The position numbers and the translations under genes were made by a program. The notes beneath the pieces are model-generated. The model was not told where the DNA came from. It made no database searches and was given only the letters and a program-made list of their open reading frames with translations. 64,000 bases of DNA from Nitrospirales bacterium (lineage in GTDB: Bacteria; Nitrospirota; Nitrospiria; Nitrospirales; UBA8639). This document shows positions 45,398 to 55,664 of this stretch, piece by piece. The first letter of the stretch is position 1; each line of letters begins with the position of its first letter. The stretch lies in the NCBI GenBank assembly GCA_029261295.1, contig JAJDBP010000002.1, positions 248,001 to 312,000 of the forward strand, written 5' to 3'.

Positions 45398-46471
45398 TCA
45401 ACGGAAGCTTTGAAGCAGTTTTGCAAACAACTCTACCTCTGTTTTTGGAGTGTTGGAAGACCAGGAAAGGCGAATGCCAGTTTGATTATGATTATTCTGT
45501 AATTGAAACGTCTTATAAGATAAATTGAGCGACTTAGATTGGACTTGTGCTTCTGTTTGTTTGTTGAGACAAGTAAACGACAAAATCCCAGGGGAATGTG
45601 CTCCATTCCATTCTAAGATTTTGATTTGAGGAATCTTTGATAATTTTCGTAGAAGCTCTTCTCTGATGTGTTCCAACTTATCAGGCTTGAGTCCGTTTTG
45701 TTGTTTGATCAGACAGGCTTTGGCCAAGCCAGCTATCAATCCAATATTCTGTGTTCCTAGTTCAAAGTTTGTCCAAAGTGGCTGACGAAGTTCATTCTTA
45801 TTAGCACAACTCAAATTAGTATGTTCTGCAAATTGTTTTCCTAAGATAAGTGCGCCGGTTCCCATCGGTCCTCCGCACCATTTATGCCCAGGGAAAAAAT
45901 AGGCGTCCGGTTGCCATTCCTGAAAACTAACAGGAATATGTCCAACTGCTTGTGCGCCATCAATAATAATAATGGCCTGATGGGTGCGAGCAAGTTTGGC
46001 GAGTTGGGCGATAGGGAAAATGCGACCATCGATATGTGACACATGACTCATGACGATGGCACGAACCTGGGAACATTTTAAATGGCCTTCAATCTGAATT
46101 TTCAATTCTTGAGGAGAACTCGGGTCTAATGTTCGAACAACAACCCCTCGAGATTCTAATGCCAAGATCTCTTTGAGTACCGTGGAATTTTCATGCGTCG
46201 TTGTGAGGATTTGGTCTTCAGATTTCCATGCGATGCGAGATAGCACTAGTGAGCTGGCTGTGGTGGCATTGGGCACAAAGGCCACAGAATTTTCATCCTG
46301 AACCCCAAGCCAATTTGCCAATGCATATCGACAGCGTTGAAGAGTCTCACGATAATAGCGAATGCCTTCATCTGAGTAGAGCAGCCGGCTAAATTGCTCA
46401 AGTGTAGTGGTGACCTCCCGTTGCACCTCCTGGTTAAATGGAGAAAGGCCTGCGACATTAAAATAGATCAT
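45398..46471 (-). CDS. egtE: Class V aminotransferase-fold PLP enzyme, probable EgtE (hercynylcysteine sulfoxide lyase)
   Basis: A 357-residue cysteine-desulfurase-like enzyme. The PLP-binding Lys is in FFPGHKWCGGPMG, the cofactor Asp/His in IIIDGAQAVGH, and FVPNATTASSLVLSRI near residue 66 is typical. The N-terminus MIYFNVAGLSP is typical of isopenicillin-epimerase/EgtE-type members, not SufS. The next gene upstream (93 bases) is egtD, and egtB is near, so C-S lysis of hercynylcysteine sulfoxide to ergothioneine is the likely reaction. By sequence alone it could be another class V enzyme. The ribosome binding site is weak. Confidence 0.75.
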   Translation of the reverse strand: MIYFNVAGLSPFNQEVQREVTTTLEQFSRLLYSDEGIRYYRETLQRCRYALANWLGVQDENSVAFVPNATTASSLVLSRIAWKSEDQILTTTHENSTVLKEILALESRGVVVRTLDPSSPQELKIQIEGHLKCSQVRAIVMSHVSHIDGRIFPIAQLAKLARTHQAIIIIDGAQAVGHIPVSFQEWQPDAYFFPGHKWCGGPMGTGALILGKQFAEHTNLSCANKNELRQPLWTNFELGTQNIGLIAGLAKACLIKQQNGLKPDKLEHIREELLRKLSKIPQIKILEWNGAHSPGILSFTCLNKQTEAQVQSKSLNLSYKTFQLQNNHNQTGIRLSWSSNTPKTEVELFAKLLQSFR

Positions 46472-46564
46472 AAGCGTGTTTCGCCTGATTGAGCGAGGCC
46501 CTTGGGGTAAAGAAGAAACAATTGAGCCAAGGGACGTGCTAAATGAGAGGGGGTTGTCCGAAGG

Positions 46565-47548
46565 CTATGGTTTTCTGGCTAGCGCGAGGCTGATGAGTTG
46601 ATCGGGGTCAGTATACCATTTAACCAATTCAAATCCTGCACATATTAGAAGGTCTTCTGCTAGTGGATGATCATATTTCGTGCTGAGTTCTGTGCGAATT
46701 TCTTCGTCCTTTTTCAGCTGAATTGAAAGATCCAAATTGGGAATGTCTAATGTTTGATCCTGACAAGATCGTAGCCACATTTCAATGCGATGGGAGTCTG
46801 AATTATAGCGTGCGACATGTTCGAAATTATCTGAATCGCATTGTGCCCCTAATTGATTGCGAAGCACTCGGAGAATATTTTTATTAAACTTCGCGGTGAT
46901 ACCTTTTTGGTCGTTATAGGCGGCTTCTAAGCGTTTTTGGCTGGTGATGAGTTGGACGCCTAATAAGAAGAAATCCCCTGAGGCCATTTCGGTATTGACT
47001 GCTGTTAAAAAGTCTTCAGCCGCTATTGGCGGCAAGTTGCCGATGGTTCCTCCAAGAATGACGACTAGGCGTTTCCCGCCTTCAGGAATGTGCTCGAGAT
47101 GGACGAGAAAATCTCCTGCCACACCATGGATTTGAAGGCCGGGATATTCTTGAACGAGTTCTTCTGAGACTCGGCGAACGATGGCTTCATCTACATCAAA
47201 GGGGACGAAATACCGTAATTGATCCGCCTGGGCCATGGCATCTAATAAGACGCGAGTCTTCGTAGCTGCGCCTGACCCGAGCTCAACCAGTTCCTCAGCC
47301 CCACTCAGCGCGACAATTTCATCAGCCCAGGTGAGAAGCAGCTGATGCTCAGTCCGTGTTTGGTAATATTCTGGCAATTCACAGATTTGCTCGAAGAGGG
47401 TTGAGCCACGTTCGTCATAAAATAATTTAGAAGGCAACGTTCTCGGATTAGCAAGGAGGCCGACCTTCACGATTTTTCCCAATGTATCGGGATCTTCTCG
47501 TGTTATCGGTACGTCAATGGTAATTGATGCCTCAGTTTTCGAATCCAT
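46565..47548 (-). CDS. egtD: L-histidine N-alpha-methyltransferase
   Basis: Trimethylates histidine to hercynine with S-adenosylmethionine, the first step of ergothioneine synthesis; cytoplasmic. It has 327 residues, close to the family length. Typical parts are PSKLFYDERGSTLFEQICELPEYY near residue 40 (two overlapping segments), the SAM motif LVELGSGAATKTRVLL, FVPFDVDEAIV, and ILGGTIGNLPP near residue 164. GGAGGAAGG lies just before the ATG. The egtE-like gene follows on the same strand. Confidence 0.95.
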   Translation of the reverse strand: MDSKTEASITIDVPITREDPDTLGKIVKVGLLANPRTLPSKLFYDERGSTLFEQICELPEYYQTRTEHQLLLTWADEIVALSGAEELVELGSGAATKTRVLLDAMAQADQLRYFVPFDVDEAIVRRVSEELVQEYPGLQIHGVAGDFLVHLEHIPEGGKRLVVILGGTIGNLPPIAAEDFLTAVNTEMASGDFFLLGVQLITSQKRLEAAYNDQKGITAKFNKNILRVLRNQLGAQCDSDNFEHVARYNSDSHRIEMWLRSCQDQTLDIPNLDLSIQLKKDEEIRTELSTKYDHPLAEDLLICAGFELVKWYTDPDQLISLALARKP

Positions 47549-47816
47549 GCCTTCCTCCCTGGGTTAAGAACGTACAAATAGCCTCGGCTTAAAACATCTA
47601 TGGATTAGCATTTTGAACAAGTCCAATAGATGAAAATACAAATAGATGAATTTAGTATGAGAAGGGAAAACTAATTGGATAGGACTAGGGAAGTTATGAA
47701 GTGTTGTATAAGTATAACCACTATACCGATCCTCTTCAATCTATGCAACCGAAAGCGATGGTGCCATAGATTTGTCAATGTAATTGAAACGACGGTGAGA
47801 AGATTCCATAGTTGAT

Positions 47817-49436
47817 TTATTGTGAAGGTTCCATGCCCTTTGGTTGGATAAGCCGTTCAACCCAACCTAAAAAGCCATCAACGATCAATGCTAATAATGT
47901 CGCGGGTAATGCTCCAGAAAGAATGACATCGACATCGGCTAATTGCAGGCCAGACACGATGGGGACTCCCAGACCCCCGGCTCCTATGAACGCGGCGAGG
48001 GTAGCAGTACCTACCGTCCAAATCGCAGCGGTTCGAATCCCGGCCATGATGGTGGGTGCTGCCAAAGGTAGGCGAACCGATCGCAAGATTTGCCATTCGG
48101 TCATTCCCAGTGCCCGTCCAGTTTCGACGACCGTTGGTGCGGCATCCCGGAGGCCTGAAAAGGTATTGCGCACAATGGGGTACAACGAATAAATCCATAA
48201 CGCCATTATCGCGGGTAGTACCCCGACTCCAAAAACCGGAATCATAAAGGCCAGTAAGGCGATAGAAGGAATCGTTTGGGACATGCCGATGAGGCGAATC
48301 ATCGTTTCCGCGCCGGTTCGCCAACGCTCCAACATGAAAGCCAAAGGAAGGGCTACGATAATACCCAGTGACAACCCTATCCCGGCCAATCCTAAATGTT
48401 CCCCAGTCCGAACCAATAATGGTCCTCTCCGTTCCCACATATACGAAAGGAATGAGGTAGGTTTTTTGATGGTTATAGAGGAAGGTGCCTGGGGTTCTTT
48501 CACAAGATGTAAGTTTCGTAATGCGTCATGAGCCACTTGAGGAATCGCGTCACCTTTTTCTTGAATGCGGAGATTTAATTCTCGCATGCGTTCAGGACTC
48601 AGAGCTTGTGTGAGAAGACCCAGGACCTTGCTCAATTCAGGATGTTGTTCCAGCGTTTCGCCTCGTACGAGTGCTGCAGCGTCATATGGCGGGAAAAAAC
48701 TTTGGTCGTCTTCCAACACGACAAAGTCGTATACCGCTAAGCGGCCATCGGTGGTATACACGTCTAGTACATCAATATCACCCCTCTCGGTTGCTTGATA
48801 TTTTAAAGATTGTTGCATGCCAACCACATCACGAAATTTCAGACCATATATATGTTTGAGGCCCGGAAGCCCATCAGCCCGTTCGATAAATTCGTAGCCA
48901 AATCCAGCTTTGAGTGTTGGGGCGGCTTCAGCCAAGTCTGAAATGGTACGAATTTTTAATGACTGTGCGTGATCCCGCCGGAGCGCTAGAGCATAGGAAT
49001 TATCAAAGCCCAGTGGTGAAAGCCACCACAGATTCCATCGTTCTCGAAATTCGTAGCGAACTTGGTTCAAAACGGCACGTGGATCCTGCTTGGCAGATTC
49101 ACCAAGAATGGTGACCAAACCCGTTCCGGTATATTCGGGATAGAGGTCAATGGCTCCCGTGGTTAAGGCTTGAAAACATATTTGTGTGCCGGCAAGGCCA
49201 AAACGACGCTTGACCGTTAGTGTGGTTTGGGATTCGATCAGTTGGGCGAACATTTCAGCCAATAGTCGATTTTCTAGAAAATTTTTTGAGCCCACAATGA
49301 CTGTGGAATTGGTTGAAGCCATAATTGGACCTGCCAAGATCAGAGGCACTAATAGGTTCAACAGGATGATCTTCACCAAGAGCCGAGGCCTGTTTCTGAT
49401 GCGATGGGTGTTCGGGAAATATGGTCTAATGGCCAT
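47817..49436 (-). CDS. Fused substrate-binding protein/permease of an OpuC/EgtU-like ABC importer
   Basis: A 539-residue inner-membrane protein. Signal-like helix (LLVKIILLNLLVPLILAGPIMA), then an osmoprotectant-type binding domain (about 40-300: VIVGSKNFLENRLLAEMF, LYPEYTGTGL), then a permease domain (about 330-530) with the coupling loop TGRALGMTEWQILRSVRLPL. Such proteins import quaternary amines. EgtU, an ergothioneine importer, is a similar fusion, but with the permease first; here the binding domain is first. Lying between egtD and egtB, it probably takes up ergothioneine, hercynine or betaine-like compounds. The ATPase gene ends four bases upstream. Confidence 0.88.
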   Translation of the reverse strand: MAIRPYFPNTHRIRNRPRLLVKIILLNLLVPLILAGPIMASTNSTVIVGSKNFLENRLLAEMFAQLIESQTTLTVKRRFGLAGTQICFQALTTGAIDLYPEYTGTGLVTILGESAKQDPRAVLNQVRYEFRERWNLWWLSPLGFDNSYALALRRDHAQSLKIRTISDLAEAAPTLKAGFGYEFIERADGLPGLKHIYGLKFRDVVGMQQSLKYQATERGDIDVLDVYTTDGRLAVYDFVVLEDDQSFFPPYDAAALVRGETLEQHPELSKVLGLLTQALSPERMRELNLRIQEKGDAIPQVAHDALRNLHLVKEPQAPSSITIKKPTSFLSYMWERRGPLLVRTGEHLGLAGIGLSLGIIVALPLAFMLERWRTGAETMIRLIGMSQTIPSIALLAFMIPVFGVGVLPAIMALWIYSLYPIVRNTFSGLRDAAPTVVETGRALGMTEWQILRSVRLPLAAPTIMAGIRTAAIWTVGTATLAAFIGAGGLGVPIVSGLQLADVDVILSGALPATLLALIVDGFLGWVERLIQPKGMEPSQ

Positions 49437-49440
49437 GTGG

Positions 49441-50184
49441 TTATGCCAAGTGATGTTGAATAAGCGAGTTCACATATGGGGTGGCTGGTGTATCTATGAG
49501 CTCCTGCGGGGTCCCTATTTGATGAATGTGCCCATCTTTTAACACCGTGATACGATCCCCTAGACGAAAGGCCTCCGCCATGTCATGCGTGACCAGGACC
49601 ATGGTTTTTTGGATCGTGGTTTTGAGGGTGAGAAATTGCTCATGCAATTCGTGCCGAGTCAATGGGTCTAACGCGCTAAATGGTTCATCGAATAAGACAA
49701 TAGGAGGGTCAGCAGCTAACGCTCTGGCAACGGCTACCCGTTGGCGTTGACCGCCGGATAATTCTATTGGGTATCGGGAAGCGATCTGGATGGGATCTAA
49801 ATTGACTAGGGGTAGAAGGGAGTTGAAACGTTCATCTTGTTGAGCGATGGGCCATTCTAATAATTGGAGTACTAAGCAGACATTGTCATGGATCGTCCAA
49901 TGTGGAAAGAGCCCCCCATCTTGAGAGACGTATCCCAATCGGCGTCGTAACGCGATAGGATCTTGTTTAGCTGCGGGATGACCTTGGATGAATATTTCGC
50001 CTGATGAAGGTTCGGCAAGACGATTCAATAATCGCAGGAGGGTGGTTTTCCCTGACCCGCTTTCACCAATAAGGACCATGGTTTCGCCTTGCTTAACATT
50101 CCAATCGATCTCTTCAAGAGCAGTTGTCCCGTCGGGAAAACGTTTGCTGAGTTTCCTAGCTTCAAGTTCAGAGGAGTGTGTCAC
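49441..50184 (-). CDS. ABC-transporter ATPase, ProV/EgtV-like
   Basis: A 247-residue ATPase partner of the fused permease. Walker A is GESGSGKTT, the Q-loop is GYVSQDGGLFPHWT, the signature is LSGGQRQRVAVARAL and Walker B is PIVLFDEPFSALDP; the His switch is VLVTHDMAEAF. It lacks the C-terminal CBS pair common in ProV/OpuCA. The start is GTG at 50184 without a clear ribosome binding site. It is the first gene of the leftward transporter pair, divergent from egtB. Confidence 0.9.
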   Translation of the reverse strand: MTHSSELEARKLSKRFPDGTTALEEIDWNVKQGETMVLIGESGSGKTTLLRLLNRLAEPSSGEIFIQGHPAAKQDPIALRRRLGYVSQDGGLFPHWTIHDNVCLVLQLLEWPIAQQDERFNSLLPLVNLDPIQIASRYPIELSGGQRQRVAVARALAADPPIVLFDEPFSALDPLTRHELHEQFLTLKTTIQKTMVLVTHDMAEAFRLGDRITVLKDGHIHQIGTPQELIDTPATPYVNSLIQHHLA

Positions 50185-50497
50185 AGGTATTTCATTGTCA
50201 GTAGTGGACGCATTCCTTCATTCTCAAAGGAAATTCTCTATGGAGGGTTGGCAGTTTATCCCAATAGTATATTTTGAGAATAGCAAGGAACGGTAATCGT
50301 GGCTAGCCGAGAATACGAATGGTTCAATGTAGGATTTTTTACATAAGAAATAGGCTGGATTTTCTGATGGAAAAGTTCAGGTGAACTTTTCGAAAATGTG
50401 CAAGTACGGTATAGTAGCGACAGCCAATAGACCACTTTTTCATTGATGCCCATACTGTTCATTATTTTGTGGATCGCAATCATGCCTGAGGTTTTGT
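50185..50497. promoter_or_regulatory. Divergent promoter region between the transporter and egtB
   Basis: About 310 bases that must hold promoters for both the leftward transporter genes and the rightward egtB. A GTATAGT stretch near 50411 could be a -10 box for egtB. No operator was identified with confidence. Confidence 0.35.
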
Positions 50498-51715
50498 ATG
50501 ACTACATTATGTTCTAGCCTTCAACAGGAATTGGAAGAAGCCCGGCGACGAACGGATAGTTTGTTTGAGTTGATAAGTCCAGACGCAATGTATGCGCGCC
50601 CGATTCCTGAGCGTCATCGGTTGATTTTTTATTTAGGGCATATCGAAGCGTTCGACTGGAATCAATTATGTCGGTGGACGTTGGGGAGGCCGGCATTTCA
50701 TTCATCGTTTGATCAATTATTTGAGGCGGGCATTGATCCGACGGTTGGAACTGCTACGGCCGACACCCCTTCTGATTGGCCCACAATCCGTGAAGTGGGA
50801 GATTACAATACTCGCGTTCGGCAAGAAGTTGATCAGGCCTTAGAGCAAGTCTCAGAAGAGATGGTGCATGTGGCGATTGAACATCGTCTCATGCATATCG
50901 AGACTACCGCGTATTTAATTCATCATTTGGACCTTCGAGAGAAACAGACACCTCATTCTGCACGACTTTCTTTAAATGGGACAGCCCCTTCCGAAGAAAT
51001 GGTAGAGATCCCTGAAGGGCCGACTCGGTTAGGTCGTCGTCATGGGGAGGGTTTTGGGTGGGATAATGAATTTGGGGAACATGAAATCATTGTACCTTCT
51101 TTTGCCATGAGCCGTTATAAAATAACCAATGGCCAGTATTTACAATTTGTGAATCAGGGGGGAACCCCACCTGCTCTTTGGGAGCGTCAGGAGGAGCAGT
51201 GGATGTTGAGGACGATGTTCCAACTCGTGCCCTTACCCTATTCTTGGCCTGTGTACGTGACGCATACACAGGCTCAGGCTTATGCAGAATGGAAAAAGTT
51301 GACTTTGCCAACTGAAGCACAATTTCACCGCGCAGCGTATGGTAGGCCCTCGGGTGATGATCAACCGTTTCCCTGGTCTGCAAATTCTGTCCCTCAACAT
51401 TGCGGCAATTTTAATTTTCAGGCTTGGGATCCTACGTCAGTGACAGCCGATTCCCAGGGAAGGAGTGCGTTTGGTGTGGCTCAATTGGTTGGCAATGGCT
51501 GGGAATGGACATCGACTCCTTTCCACCCATTTGAAGGCTTTCAACCATTCTCAACCTATCCAGGCTATTCGGCTCGATTTTTTGATCAAGATCATTACGT
51601 TGTGAAAGGCGGAGGACCGTTGACTGCTGGGCGATTATTAAGGCGGTCATTCCGAAATTGGTTTCGCCAAGGCTATTCTTATGCCCACACCGGTTTTCGT
51701 TGTATTAAGGCTTGA
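50498..51715 (+). CDS. egtB: Ergothioneine-type sulfoxide synthase EgtB
   Basis: Couples hercynine with a thiol (cysteine or gamma-glutamylcysteine) and oxygen at a non-haem iron centre. It has 405 residues, in two parts: an N-terminal DinB-type helical bundle with the metal motif His129-x3-His133-x-Glu135 (HRLMHIET), and a C-terminal formylglycine-enzyme/sulfatase-modifying domain (about 170-405; VAQLVGNGWEWTSTPF and FRNWFRQGYSYAHTGFRC). TGAGG precedes the ATG. No egtA or egtC is in the window, so the thiol could be cysteine, but other loci cannot be excluded. Confidence 0.93.
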   Translation: MTTLCSSLQQELEEARRRTDSLFELISPDAMYARPIPERHRLIFYLGHIEAFDWNQLCRWTLGRPAFHSSFDQLFEAGIDPTVGTATADTPSDWPTIREVGDYNTRVRQEVDQALEQVSEEMVHVAIEHRLMHIETTAYLIHHLDLREKQTPHSARLSLNGTAPSEEMVEIPEGPTRLGRRHGEGFGWDNEFGEHEIIVPSFAMSRYKITNGQYLQFVNQGGTPPALWERQEEQWMLRTMFQLVPLPYSWPVYVTHTQAQAYAEWKKLTLPTEAQFHRAAYGRPSGDDQPFPWSANSVPQHCGNFNFQAWDPTSVTADSQGRSAFGVAQLVGNGWEWTSTPFHPFEGFQPFSTYPGYSARFFDQDHYVVKGGGPLTAGRLLRRSFRNWFRQGYSYAHTGFRCIKA

Positions 51716-51813
51716 GGCTCTTTCGCAAGGATAGTATTTTCTTCATTCTTCTCTATGGGGATCACCTTTCAGGTCAATGATTTTCAAAATCTTTCAAAAT
51801 CTTCCACGTTTTG

Positions 51814-54234
51814 ATGATCGTTTCTTGCGCTTTGTTTGACCCTCGCCGCTGGTGGAGAGACCTGACTGGGGTTTGGGCCGATACTAGGCTCATTGTCATC
51901 ATTGCCCAAATTGCGGCAATTTACGCTGCGATTCTTATCCCCTTTAAAGCTGGTATTCCTCTCATTCCGGGTTTTGTGGAATTACGTCCCGCCAATGCTA
52001 TTCCCATTGTCGCCTCATTGTTATTCGGCCCGGCCGCTGCGTGGGGTTCGGGCATTGGCAATATTATTGGGGATTGTTTCGGAACGTTGGGTCCTGCAAG
52101 TGTCTTTGGATTTTTGGGTAATTTCTTTTTTGGATATTTTCCTTATTTGATGTGGGGACATTTGGGATGGTTGTCGTCCGGTCGACCACCCATGGTGAAA
52201 TCATGGCGGCAAGGCTTGGAATATGGTCTGATTTGTGTGGTGGCTTCTGGAGTGTGTGCAGGGATTATTGGATGGGGAGTGGAGCTATTGGGTTTGCTGC
52301 CTTTTCTCGTTCTAGCTCCCGCAATTTTTTTTAATAATATTGTGATGGGGTTGTTTCTGGGTCCCCCACTGCTTGGTTTTCTTTATCCCCGTGTTCAACG
52401 ATGGCATTTACGATATGAAGATATCCTTCCTTATCTGATCCCCCGTGTAGACTCTTGTGAGTCTTCCAATACTCCCACCCCAAATAATAATTCGCTTTCT
52501 CTCCCACAAGAAGGAACTAATTCACCCCTCTTGACCTGCCGAGATTTTTCTTTTTCGTATTCTCGCAATACAACACCGGCTCTTCACAATATGACATTTA
52601 CTATTGCTGTTGGGGAATTCGTCATGTTGTTGGGTCGAAGTGGATCAGGCAAGTCCACTCTATGTTATGCCTGTAATGGCCTGATTCCACAAATGATTCC
52701 GGGTAAATTTTCTGGGAAGGTTCATGTGTGTGGGAATGACACCCAAACCTTTCCTGTGTGGAAAGGGGCGAAATACGTAGGGTTAGTCTTTCAGGATTTT
52801 GAAACTCAACTAATTGGCACCACAGTGGGAGCCGAACTTCGGCATCCCTTGGAATATCGTGAAGTTCCTCTGTCTCTTCATGAAATCAATCGGCGTATTG
52901 AGCAGGTTTTGAGCACTCTCGGTTTGGAAGTTGAGCTTGACCGAGATCCGTTGAGGATGTCAGGTGGACAACGTCAACGACTTGTCATGGCTTCTGTTTT
53001 GGTGCAAGAGCCCAGGGTTTTGATTCTTGATGAGCCCAGTTCGGATTTGGATCCTGCCAGTCGGAAGCGACTTCAGCTGACTTTGGAGGAGTTGAAAAGC
53101 AAAGGATTGAGTGTATTGATGACGGAGCAAGATCATGGTGATTTTCAATTAGTTGATCGTGTCATTCTTCTTGATGAGGGGAGGGTGATCTGGGATGGTC
53201 AGCCAAATGCTTTGTTGGCAAATCCTGAATTAATGAGGCAGGGAGGTATCAGACCATTACCGATAACAGAATGTTTTGAGGATTTTGATTGCGAACCATT
53301 GCCCCTCACTCTAGAACAAGCCTGGGCATATTCGGAAAAATTGCAGTTAATGGTCGATCCTCCGGCGGAGGTCCTGAATGATACCGTCCGTTTTGGAATA
53401 CCAGTGTTTCCCAGAGAGAACCAAATCGCTCCGATTATTCAGGTCGAGGATGTGAGCTTTGGGTACGATGAATTCCCTGTGCTTCAGGATATTTATTGTG
53501 ACATATATCCTGGTGAGTTCTTGGCCTTGGTCGGGGCCAATGGGTCGGGGAAAAGTACGTTGGCGCGCCTGCTGAACGGACTATTAGTCCCGACAGATGG
53601 GCGGATACTGGTAGATGGCTTGGATACTTTGACCACTTCTATGAAGGAAATGGCGAGACGAGTAGGTTTGGTCTTTCAAAACCCCGATCATCAAATTTTT
53701 GCGGACACGGTGTGGGAGGAAGTGGCATTTGGTGCTAAAAATCTTGGCTGTTCTCAGGAAGAGATTGGGGATCGTGTCCAACAATCATTAAAAGCTGTGG
53801 GCCTTCCATTTGAAGAAAAAAGTGATCTTGATCCATTTTCCTTACGCAAGGGTGAGCGGCAACGAGTGGCTGTTGCTTCGATCCTTGCGACACAACCAAC
53901 CGTGTTAATTTTTGATGAACCAACGACAGGCCTAGATGCTTCAGAGACCGATCGGATGATGGGCATGATCAGGGAGTTACACCGAGAAGGTCATACCATT
54001 GTAATGATCACCCACTCTATGAGCTTAGTAGCTGCGCATGCTCAGCGGTGCCTCTTAATGGCAAAAGGGGAAATTATTGGTGATGGGTCACCTCGTGATA
54101 TTTTTCGTGATTCTGTGCTTGTCCGAAGGGCTTCTTTGGAGGTTCCCGCGATTCCCCAGTTTAGTCAACGATGGGGATATACGTTATTGACGGTGAATGA
54201 GGTCAAAGCTTCGCTGAGGGCAAAGGTGTTATGA
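51814..54234 (+). CDS. ECF transporter: S component fused to two EcfA ATPase domains
   Basis: An 806-residue fusion. Residues about 25-205 are a hydrophobic S-component-like domain (FVELRPANAIPIVASLLFG, GIGNIIGDCFG). The first ATPase has Walker A GRSGSGKST, signature MSGGQRQR and Walker B VLILDEPSSDLDP; the second has GANGSGKST, an altered signature LRKGERQR and VLIFDEPTTGLDA. Normally these are three separate subunits. The T component follows with an ATGA overlap. The substrate is not clear from sequence; proximity to egt genes suggests, without proving, a sulfur or histidine-derived compound or a vitamin. The ribosome binding site is weak; the ATG at 51814 is preferred to TTG 51811. Confidence 0.88.
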   Translation: MIVSCALFDPRRWWRDLTGVWADTRLIVIIAQIAAIYAAILIPFKAGIPLIPGFVELRPANAIPIVASLLFGPAAAWGSGIGNIIGDCFGTLGPASVFGFLGNFFFGYFPYLMWGHLGWLSSGRPPMVKSWRQGLEYGLICVVASGVCAGIIGWGVELLGLLPFLVLAPAIFFNNIVMGLFLGPPLLGFLYPRVQRWHLRYEDILPYLIPRVDSCESSNTPTPNNNSLSLPQEGTNSPLLTCRDFSFSYSRNTTPALHNMTFTIAVGEFVMLLGRSGSGKSTLCYACNGLIPQMIPGKFSGKVHVCGNDTQTFPVWKGAKYVGLVFQDFETQLIGTTVGAELRHPLEYREVPLSLHEINRRIEQVLSTLGLEVELDRDPLRMSGGQRQRLVMASVLVQEPRVLILDEPSSDLDPASRKRLQLTLEELKSKGLSVLMTEQDHGDFQLVDRVILLDEGRVIWDGQPNALLANPELMRQGGIRPLPITECFEDFDCEPLPLTLEQAWAYSEKLQLMVDPPAEVLNDTVRFGIPVFPRENQIAPIIQVEDVSFGYDEFPVLQDIYCDIYPGEFLALVGANGSGKSTLARLLNGLLVPTDGRILVDGLDTLTTSMKEMARRVGLVFQNPDHQIFADTVWEEVAFGAKNLGCSQEEIGDRVQQSLKAVGLPFEEKSDLDPFSLRKGERQRVAVASILATQPTVLIFDEPTTGLDASETDRMMGMIRELHREGHTIVMITHSMSLVAAHAQRCLLMAKGEIIGDGSPRDIFRDSVLVRRASLEVPAIPQFSQRWGYTLLTVNEVKASLRAKVL

Positions 54235-55019
54235 CGGTTTCTTTGTATGTAAACCGGAAAACGTGGGTTCATCAGTTAGACGGACGGACCAAACTCTTAA
54301 TGGTGTTGGGCATCTTTGTGTTAGCGATGTGTTTTTCACACCCGGGCTATTTGCTTGGAGTTTTGGCCGTGGTCATAGCAGGATTAGCTGTCGCCCAAGC
54401 CGGGGCGAATGTAAAGAAAATAGGAATTCTGGCAGCACTCCTTGTGTGTTATAGCATTGTGTTGTGGCCATTTTTTGTAAATGGAAAGACTCCTGTTCTA
54501 GGACTTCAGCTTCTAGGGGTGACTTGGGAAGGCTGTGTGTTTGGTTTGGGAATGGGAATGCGCTTGCTAATTATGGTTTGGGGAGGAGTCTGGCTGCTAT
54601 CAACAACGACAATTGAAGAATTGGCTCAAGCATCTCAGCGCCTGGGATTGGCCTCTCGAGTTGGTTTTGTATTTTCATTGGCCTTCCGTTGGGTTGGAGT
54701 TCTTTTAGGGGCTGGAATCGGGGTGATTCAAGCCCAACGTGCAAGAGGGCTTGATCTTTCTTCTGGAAACATCCTGGAGCGTATCAGTAGGTATGTGCCT
54801 TTAATTGTCCCGTTAATAGGACATACTCTTCGTCAAACGAATCTGGTCGCAATGGCGTTGGAATGTAAAGGGTTTCATCCAATAGCCTCACGTTCTTTTT
54901 ATCACAGAGAAAAGTTGAAAAGGCGAGATTATGCTGTTTTGTGTTTTTTAGGTATTGCCTTAGGAATGGGTGCTTGGTTGAAATGGCAGGGTATTGGGAC
55001 GTTGAATATAAGATTCTGA
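54231..55019 (+). CDS. ecfT: ECF transporter T component (EcfT)
   Basis: A 262-residue membrane protein that couples the ATPases to the S component. Several transmembrane helices are visible (LMVLGIFVLAMCFSHPGYLLG; ILAALLVCYSIVLWPFFV). The coupling helix carries the Ala-Arg-Gly motif QAQRARGLDL and a second, altered one (ALECKGFHP). Four-base overlap with the fused gene means translational coupling. The convergent terminator at 55049 ends the transcript. Confidence 0.92.
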   Translation: MTVSLYVNRKTWVHQLDGRTKLLMVLGIFVLAMCFSHPGYLLGVLAVVIAGLAVAQAGANVKKIGILAALLVCYSIVLWPFFVNGKTPVLGLQLLGVTWEGCVFGLGMGMRLLIMVWGGVWLLSTTTIEELAQASQRLGLASRVGFVFSLAFRWVGVLLGAGIGVIQAQRARGLDLSSGNILERISRYVPLIVPLIGHTLRQTNLVAMALECKGFHPIASRSFYHREKLKRRDYAVLCFLGIALGMGAWLKWQGIGTLNIRF

Positions 55020-55106: not shown

Positions 55107-55664
55107 TTATGCTTGTTTTTTTCGAAGTCGCCAGGCTCCTAAGCCTAACAATCCTGATCCGAACAGGAGGATAGTCCCTGGTTCCGGGTTTTGGACTAAT
55201 TTGGTTTCTGTATTCGTGTTGGAAAATGAAAACATCACGTCGTTGTAGTCTTGATCCCCACCACCGTACAAGTCTTCAAAGCCAACAGAAGTTCCAACCC
55301 CGGTATTCTCAACGGATGCATGGGCGACTCCATCTGCGTTAAGATCACCTGACCCAGTGTAATAGGTTTGACCGGTATTTTGTACGAAAATGGAAAAGGT
55401 CAGTACTTGCCCGGCCTGAAAGCCACCAAGCTCAATGGTCGTACCTGATGCCACATTGGAGGAGAAAAGTTCTCCATATCCCTGCAAGAATAATGTGCTG
55501 GTATAGCTTGCACTACTTCCGGCAAATGTTACAGCAACCGTTCCGCTTTCTTTAACAAAAATTTGTCCACCCAATGTTCCTGCTGCATGAGCAAAAGACG
55601 GGAGAACTAAGAGTCCTATCAATGTAACGCCTAACAGGCTGTTCTTTTTTAAAAAGTTTTTCAT
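55107..55664 (-). CDS. PEP-CTERM exported protein with DUF4114-like segment
   Basis: A 185-residue exported protein: signal peptide (SLLGVTLIGLLVLPSFAHA), a beta-rich domain, then GFEDLYGGGDQDYNDVMF, an acidic motif typical of DUF4114 that could bind calcium. The C-terminal sorting tag is complete: Pro-Glu-Pro, a transmembrane stretch (ILLFGSGLLGLGAWRL) and a basic end (RKK). The tag is recognised by EpsH/XrtA-type exosortases, which attach or release proteins at the surface in exopolysaccharide-producing bacteria. No exosortase gene is in the window. GAGGAG precedes the ATG. Confidence 0.92.
   Translation of the reverse strand: MKNFLKKNSLLGVTLIGLLVLPSFAHAAGTLGGQIFVKESGTVAVTFAGSSASYTSTLFLQGYGELFSSNVASGTTIELGGFQAGQVLTFSIFVQNTGQTYYTGSGDLNADGVAHASVENTGVGTSVGFEDLYGGGDQDYNDVMFSFSNTNTETKLVQNPEPGTILLFGSGLLGLGAWRLRKKQA

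Follow-up and report, generated by a model that had tools for sequence, protein, structure and literature searches.

The two characterised bacterial importers of the antioxidant ergothioneine, the EgtU proteins of Streptococcus pneumoniae and Helicobacter pylori, are scavengers in non-producers (H. pylori does not make ergothioneine). Pneumococcal EgtU (SpEgtU) and BilEB from Listeria combine one ATPase with a binding domain that is fused to an OpuC-type permease. A system of the same general build, in which the substrate-binding protein (SBP) domain stands first, lies among genes for ergothioneine synthesis in a Nitrospirales bacterium (GenBank assembly GCA_029261295.1). The window analysed here is a stretch of 64,000 nucleotides from that genome (contig JAJDBP010000002.1, positions 248,001 to 312,000), and positions 45398–51715 of it hold a set of five genes identified from open reading frames (ORFs) and Pfam matches: a C-S lyase, egtD, the SBP-permease fusion, an ATPase and a divergent egtB. 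This is the gene content that an earlier note on the same DNA had described. SpEgtU and BilEB belong to organisms that do not produce ergothioneine, whereas the fusion of the window type is found in producers. We consider it somewhat better than even that the importer takes ergothioneine back into producing cells, a reading in which ligand, direction and a role in retention are all inferred from co-occurrence.

A synteny search using the transporter alone as query gave 40 loci, and since egtD adjoins the transporter in 26 of these the arrangement of the fusion and the egt genes is not due to chance. The order egtB/ATPase-fusion-egtD-egtE is kept in about 25 Nitrospirales loci, from 79% down to ~60% identity, and most of these have egtB and egtE on the flanks where the window has them; the nearest relatives of the source genome are Nitrospirales metagenome-assembled genomes (MAGs). 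The fusion also adjoins egtD in one Eisenbacteria MAG, and in Planctomycetota the importer adjoins an EgtB resembling type I and an EgtD that is distantly related (36–40% identical). Most sampled genomes of the Nitrospira family (f2) lack both genes, and the four that have egtD each carry a split transporter, 38–41% identical, clustered with egtB/egtD. Permease-first transporters are also found inside egtB/egtD clusters (loci L237 and L238), as is a separate binding-protein ORF (L174 and L240), these four loci being a biased sample fetched through egtD or OpuAC matches. The occurrence of permease-first and split transporters in egt clusters indicates that domain order is the marker of a clade and not a requirement. 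Vertical inheritance of the gene order of one lineage was rejected as an explanation, as the association recurs with other enzymes, other transporter architectures and in other phyla.

The association extends to whole genomes. Strong OpuAC matches occur in 19 of 198 Nitrospirota genomes, 17 of which encode EgtD; the other 2 are the only ones among the 177 EgtD-negative genomes to have one. Among 198 Planctomycetota genomes EgtD is present in 24 of 25 carriers of an SBP-first fusion compared with 25 of 173 non-carriers, while for a Krumholzibacteriota-type phylum the figures are 7 of 7 carriers (G484 by a fragment only) and 5 of 73 others. The corresponding Fisher p values of 6e-19, 3e-16 and 2e-7 are descriptive and ignore kinship; at the family level the value for Nitrospirota is about 0.003–0.007. 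EgtD is present even where it is unlinked from the fusion, as in genomes of Krumholzibacteriota, Planctomycetota and Gemmatirosa. A general correlation with betaine transporters or lifestyle was rejected, as EgtD is not enriched in the 22 Planctomycetota genomes whose OpuAC proteins are all of other kinds (4/22 vs 21/151). The link between fusion and egtD is far broader than one locus, and the context evidence is strong. The earlier note had argued from the neighbouring synthesis genes to uptake by the organism that makes ergothioneine; the linkage holds, in several phyla, and uptake of ergothioneine or a precursor appears the best reading because of this co-occurrence.

Three routes of sulfur insertion are accompanied by the importer, namely EgtB of type I, EgtB of type IV and the metallopterin-dependent ergothioneine synthase, an enzyme class defined in PMC9516567. 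Where no EgtB is recognisable, almost every carrier encodes a full-length metallopterin synthase (G300, G318, G380, G406, G483 and G484), 62–74% identical to a Nitrospirota homologue that adjoins egtD. The presence of different enzymes beside the same importer suggests that it follows the product or a shared intermediate and not one enzyme. The sole intermediate common to the three routes is hercynine (trimethylhistidine), and an importer that scavenged this precursor for conversion to ergothioneine by the sulfur-insertion enzyme of the cell is an alternative that we regard as unlikely. A pocket that fits any trimethylammonium carboxylate with room beyond would suit it, as would two genomes (G157 and G068) with EgtD and the fusion in which no sulfur-insertion enzyme was found, and external trimethylhistidine is efficiently taken up by Escherichia coli for ergothioneine synthesis (PMC9516567). 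However, known relatives discriminate against hercynine (SpEgtU, PMC9732360), and EgtD, which makes hercynine, is nearly always present, so that the need to import it would be weak. As a separate observation, three Nitrospirota proteins of 1126–1131 amino acids (L112, L113 and L114) adjoin egtD and have a metallopterin N-terminus with an EgtE-like/desulfurase match near the C-terminus; these are likely to be metallopterin-dependent ergothioneine synthases.

The fusion had been described as an EgtU with its domains in reversed order. The reversal itself is confirmed, the OpuAC domain preceding BPD_transp_1 (Table 1) and the permease part occupying residues 337–530, whereas in BilEB, the pneumococcal-type EgtU of Listeria (in L043), the permease comes before the binding domain. 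An AlphaFold model of the fusion (mean pLDDT 86.5) has a hydrophobic N-terminal helix (17–34), a two-lobed binding domain (45–313) and a short loose linker (316–326), followed by long membrane helices with five apparent membrane segments and an EAA coupling helix at 434–442. Judging from the model and the position of the EAA loop the N-terminus of the permease would face outward, so that a domain placed in front of it would require just an export signal, while a C-terminal binding domain as in EgtU would require one additional final membrane helix; an extra hydrophobic segment does sit directly before the binding domain of BilEB. The reversed order would therefore be topologically simple.

The identification as EgtU proper did not stand. 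In the binding-domain tree the SBP-first fusions form a single clade (SH-aLRT 90), and SpEgtU and BilEB form a clade apart from it, with no firm deeper order. The fold is the same as in the SpEgtU structure 7txl (TM-score 0.93 on the target). In SpEgtU numbering, used for all positions given here, the pocket of the window protein consists of K242, N243, F244, A273, G274, T275, Y293, T296, F337, N339, Y341, E375, R379, Y419 and Y443. The betaine- and carboxylate-contacting residues of SpEgtU and E375 are all kept, save for Tyr at 293, and T275 is common to SpEgtU/BilEB and the window protein too. The ergothioneine determinants of SpEgtU, Gly244 and the Phe293/Tyr337 switch (Zhang et al. 2022, PMC9732360), are replaced by Phe244 and Tyr293/Phe337 in the window protein and its relatives. 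A pocket of this kind probably fits a trimethylammonium carboxylate, and alone it cannot separate ergothioneine, hercynine and glycine betaine.

Several of our observations weigh against ergothioneine as the ligand, or against the strength of the association. Phe244 with Tyr293/Phe337 is the glycine-betaine state of AfProX, and the substitution G244F weakens SpEgtU about 100-fold (PMC9732360). The solved proteins closest in sequence are engineered choline/nicotine sensors and not EgtU. One SBP-first genome, G283, is without a clear EgtD, which is present in every other carrier of that clade, and G157 and G068 have the incomplete pathway noted above. Five egtBD clusters examined on proteobacterial/Bacteroidota plasmids contain no such importer, and the p values overstate independence because the genomes within each phylum are related. 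The earlier note had named a betaine-type grouping and missing EgtU ligand residues as signs against its proposal, and the picture here is mixed: the determinants are in the betaine state, while the cage, the carboxylate contacts and E375 are kept. The first of these is not decisive because H. pylori EgtU (8dp6 and 8dp7, the latter with ergothioneine bound) also has Tyr293/Phe337 and carries Ser244 in place of Gly244. It shares K242, T275, T296 and R379 with the window protein as well, differs in having Asp375 and Phe419 for Glu and Tyr, and falls outside the SBP-first clade.

The same pocket raises the question of an ordinary glycine- or proline-betaine osmoprotectant importer that lies beside egt genes by chance in one lineage, which we judge quite unlikely. 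On the features stated in PMC9732360 the pocket agrees with AfProX at every position compared there (four-Tyr cage, Phe244, Phe337 and Glu375), features likewise shared with OpuF-type binding proteins, and osmoprotection is restored by EgtU-like transporters when the ligand concentration is high (PMC9732360). The fusion is, moreover, the only strong OpuAC protein of its own genome; a second match (C22) was weak and partial at 25.7 bits and dropped out of the phylum-wide search. Against this, the context of the window protein is ergothioneine synthesis, three or more phyla show the association, the EgtD/EgtB involved being non-orthologous and the transporters of several architectures, and OpuAC relatives outside that context, such as the other Planctomycetota proteins, show no association with egtD. 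Strong OpuAC is missing from most Nitrospirota, yet its carriers there are almost all EgtD-positive.

Some loci point in a different direction. Two in Planctomycetota, L221 (G278) and L224 (G391), have an EgtD-like paralogue, 28–30% identical to a Nitrospira EgtD, that lies immediately upstream of the genes for the ATPase and the SBP-first fusion; the paralogue of G278 is fused to a second methyltransferase domain, which hints at a different methylated amino acid. In four Nitrospira-family loci (L058–L061) the egt-linked split binding proteins form a long separate branch with an altered cage (F341 and N419), and their ligand may differ. Both sets of proteins would be compatible with import of some other product of EgtD-like enzymes, either derived from histidine or a quaternary amine, such as a betaine as yet unknown, with ergothioneine synthesis as a mere neighbour pathway. 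We think this very improbable, as most loci have canonical egtD together with egtB, or a metallopterin ergothioneine synthase at the genome level.

Under the favoured reading of ergothioneine re-uptake, EgtD would trimethylate histidine to hercynine, the EgtB-IV-like enzyme would join cysteine to the imidazole and a pyridoxal phosphate (PLP)-dependent lyase would release ergothioneine. The ATPase and SBP-permease fusion would form an OpuC/EgtU-type importer, the ligand of which would most likely be ergothioneine leaked from the cell or released by neighbours, and less likely hercynine, so that the producer keeps its thiol pool. The exported binding domain is predicted to close on the trimethylammonium-carboxylate ligand, with Y293, Y341, Y419, Y443 and N339 as the cage, K242, T296 and R379 holding the carboxylate and E375 available to the imidazole, before the ligand is handed to the permease dimer in a step driven by the ATPase. 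An engineered producer from which a betaine importer had been deleted showed a slight rise in extracellular ergothioneine (PMC12689799), so it is plausible that leaked product is taken up again.

More broadly, we put at marginally better than even the proposal of a dedicated importer family across phyla, through which producers retain or exchange ergothioneine whatever enzyme inserts the sulfur (EgtB of type I or IV, or the anaerobic metallopterin synthase), using a betaine-type pocket that would bind it without the residues held to be needed in pneumococcal EgtU. If so, producers that include nitrite-oxidising Nitrospirales and anaerobic Planctomycetota would actively retain or trade ergothioneine, and the pocket would be a second solution to its recognition. 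The family offers a set of proteins whose pockets differ in known ways and that can be tested directly; it could also serve engineered producers, in which yield may be limited by leakage and re-uptake (PMC12689799). The titles and abstracts of the four papers found on ergothioneine in Nitrospira contain nothing on this importer.

The enzyme names given in the earlier note were borne out to different degrees. EgtD scores above the curated equivalog cut-off (327 vs 290.9 bits, TIGR03438) and is matched by Mycolicibacterium smegmatis EgtD at 9.1e-85. The egtE-like product, encoded downstream of egtD and syntenic in most Nitrospirales loci, fails the EgtE equivalog TIGR04343 (65 vs 400 bits); of the solved proteins C-DES, a cystine C-S lyase, comes closest to it (1elq, 3.5e-24), ahead of Egt2 (5uts, 5e-10), and its sequence makes it a class-V C-S lyase whose subfamily is uncertain. 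The window EgtB also falls outside its equivalog (TIGR03440, 186 vs 360 bits). It has an HxxxHxE motif (HRLMHIE), and among solved structures is closest to EgtB-IV (8vih, 3.4e-58), followed by OvoA (8khq, 1.2e-53); an assignment as the selenoneine synthase SenA (1e-15) was rejected. The set thus resembles the three-gene pathways of EgtB-IV, with egtD, egtB and a PLP lyase and no egtA/egtC beside them, and differs in its clustered importer and in a lyase outside the EgtE equivalog. The source genome encodes a second EgtD-like methyltransferase (G000:C26:129018-129926, L115) at 272 bits, below the cut-off, and similar second genes occur in G191, G125, G133 and G212, with no egtB or transporter adjoining.

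Table 1. Features of the ergothioneine locus, in window coordinates
Feature	Position	Strand	Details
egtE-like class-V PLP enzyme, putative C-S lyase	45398-46471	-	357 aa; Pfam Aminotran_5
egtD, histidine N-alpha-methyltransferase	46565-47548	-	327 aa; Pfam Methyltransf_33; TIGR03438
SBP-permease fusion, binding domain first	47817-49436	-	539 aa; OpuAC 45-307, BPD_transp_1 355-530
Cognate ATP-binding cassette (ABC) ATPase, ProV/OpuCA-like	49441-50184	-	247 aa; Pfam ABC_tran
Divergent intergenic region, presumed promoters	50185-50497	.	313 bp, transporter-egtD-egtE set vs egtB
egtB, type-IV-like sulfoxide synthase	50498-51715	+	405 aa; Pfam DinB_2 + FGE-sulfatase

The ATPase is separated from the fusion by 4 bases, and the two adjoin in essentially all loci fetched; it matches proV (TIGR01186, NCBIfam) at 1.2e-82, under the family cut-off. 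A consensus promoter scan of the divergent intergenic region scored no better than shuffled sequences. Next to egtB, at 51811–55019, is an energy-coupling factor (ECF)-type vitamin transporter, syntenic there in several Nitrospirales loci, in which a QueT-like S component and two EcfA ATPases are fused in a single ORF, followed by a CbiQ-like T component. Beyond these genes, at 55107–55664, lies a small secreted DUF4114 protein with a PEP-CTERM sorting signal, which is kept in several of the syntenic loci.

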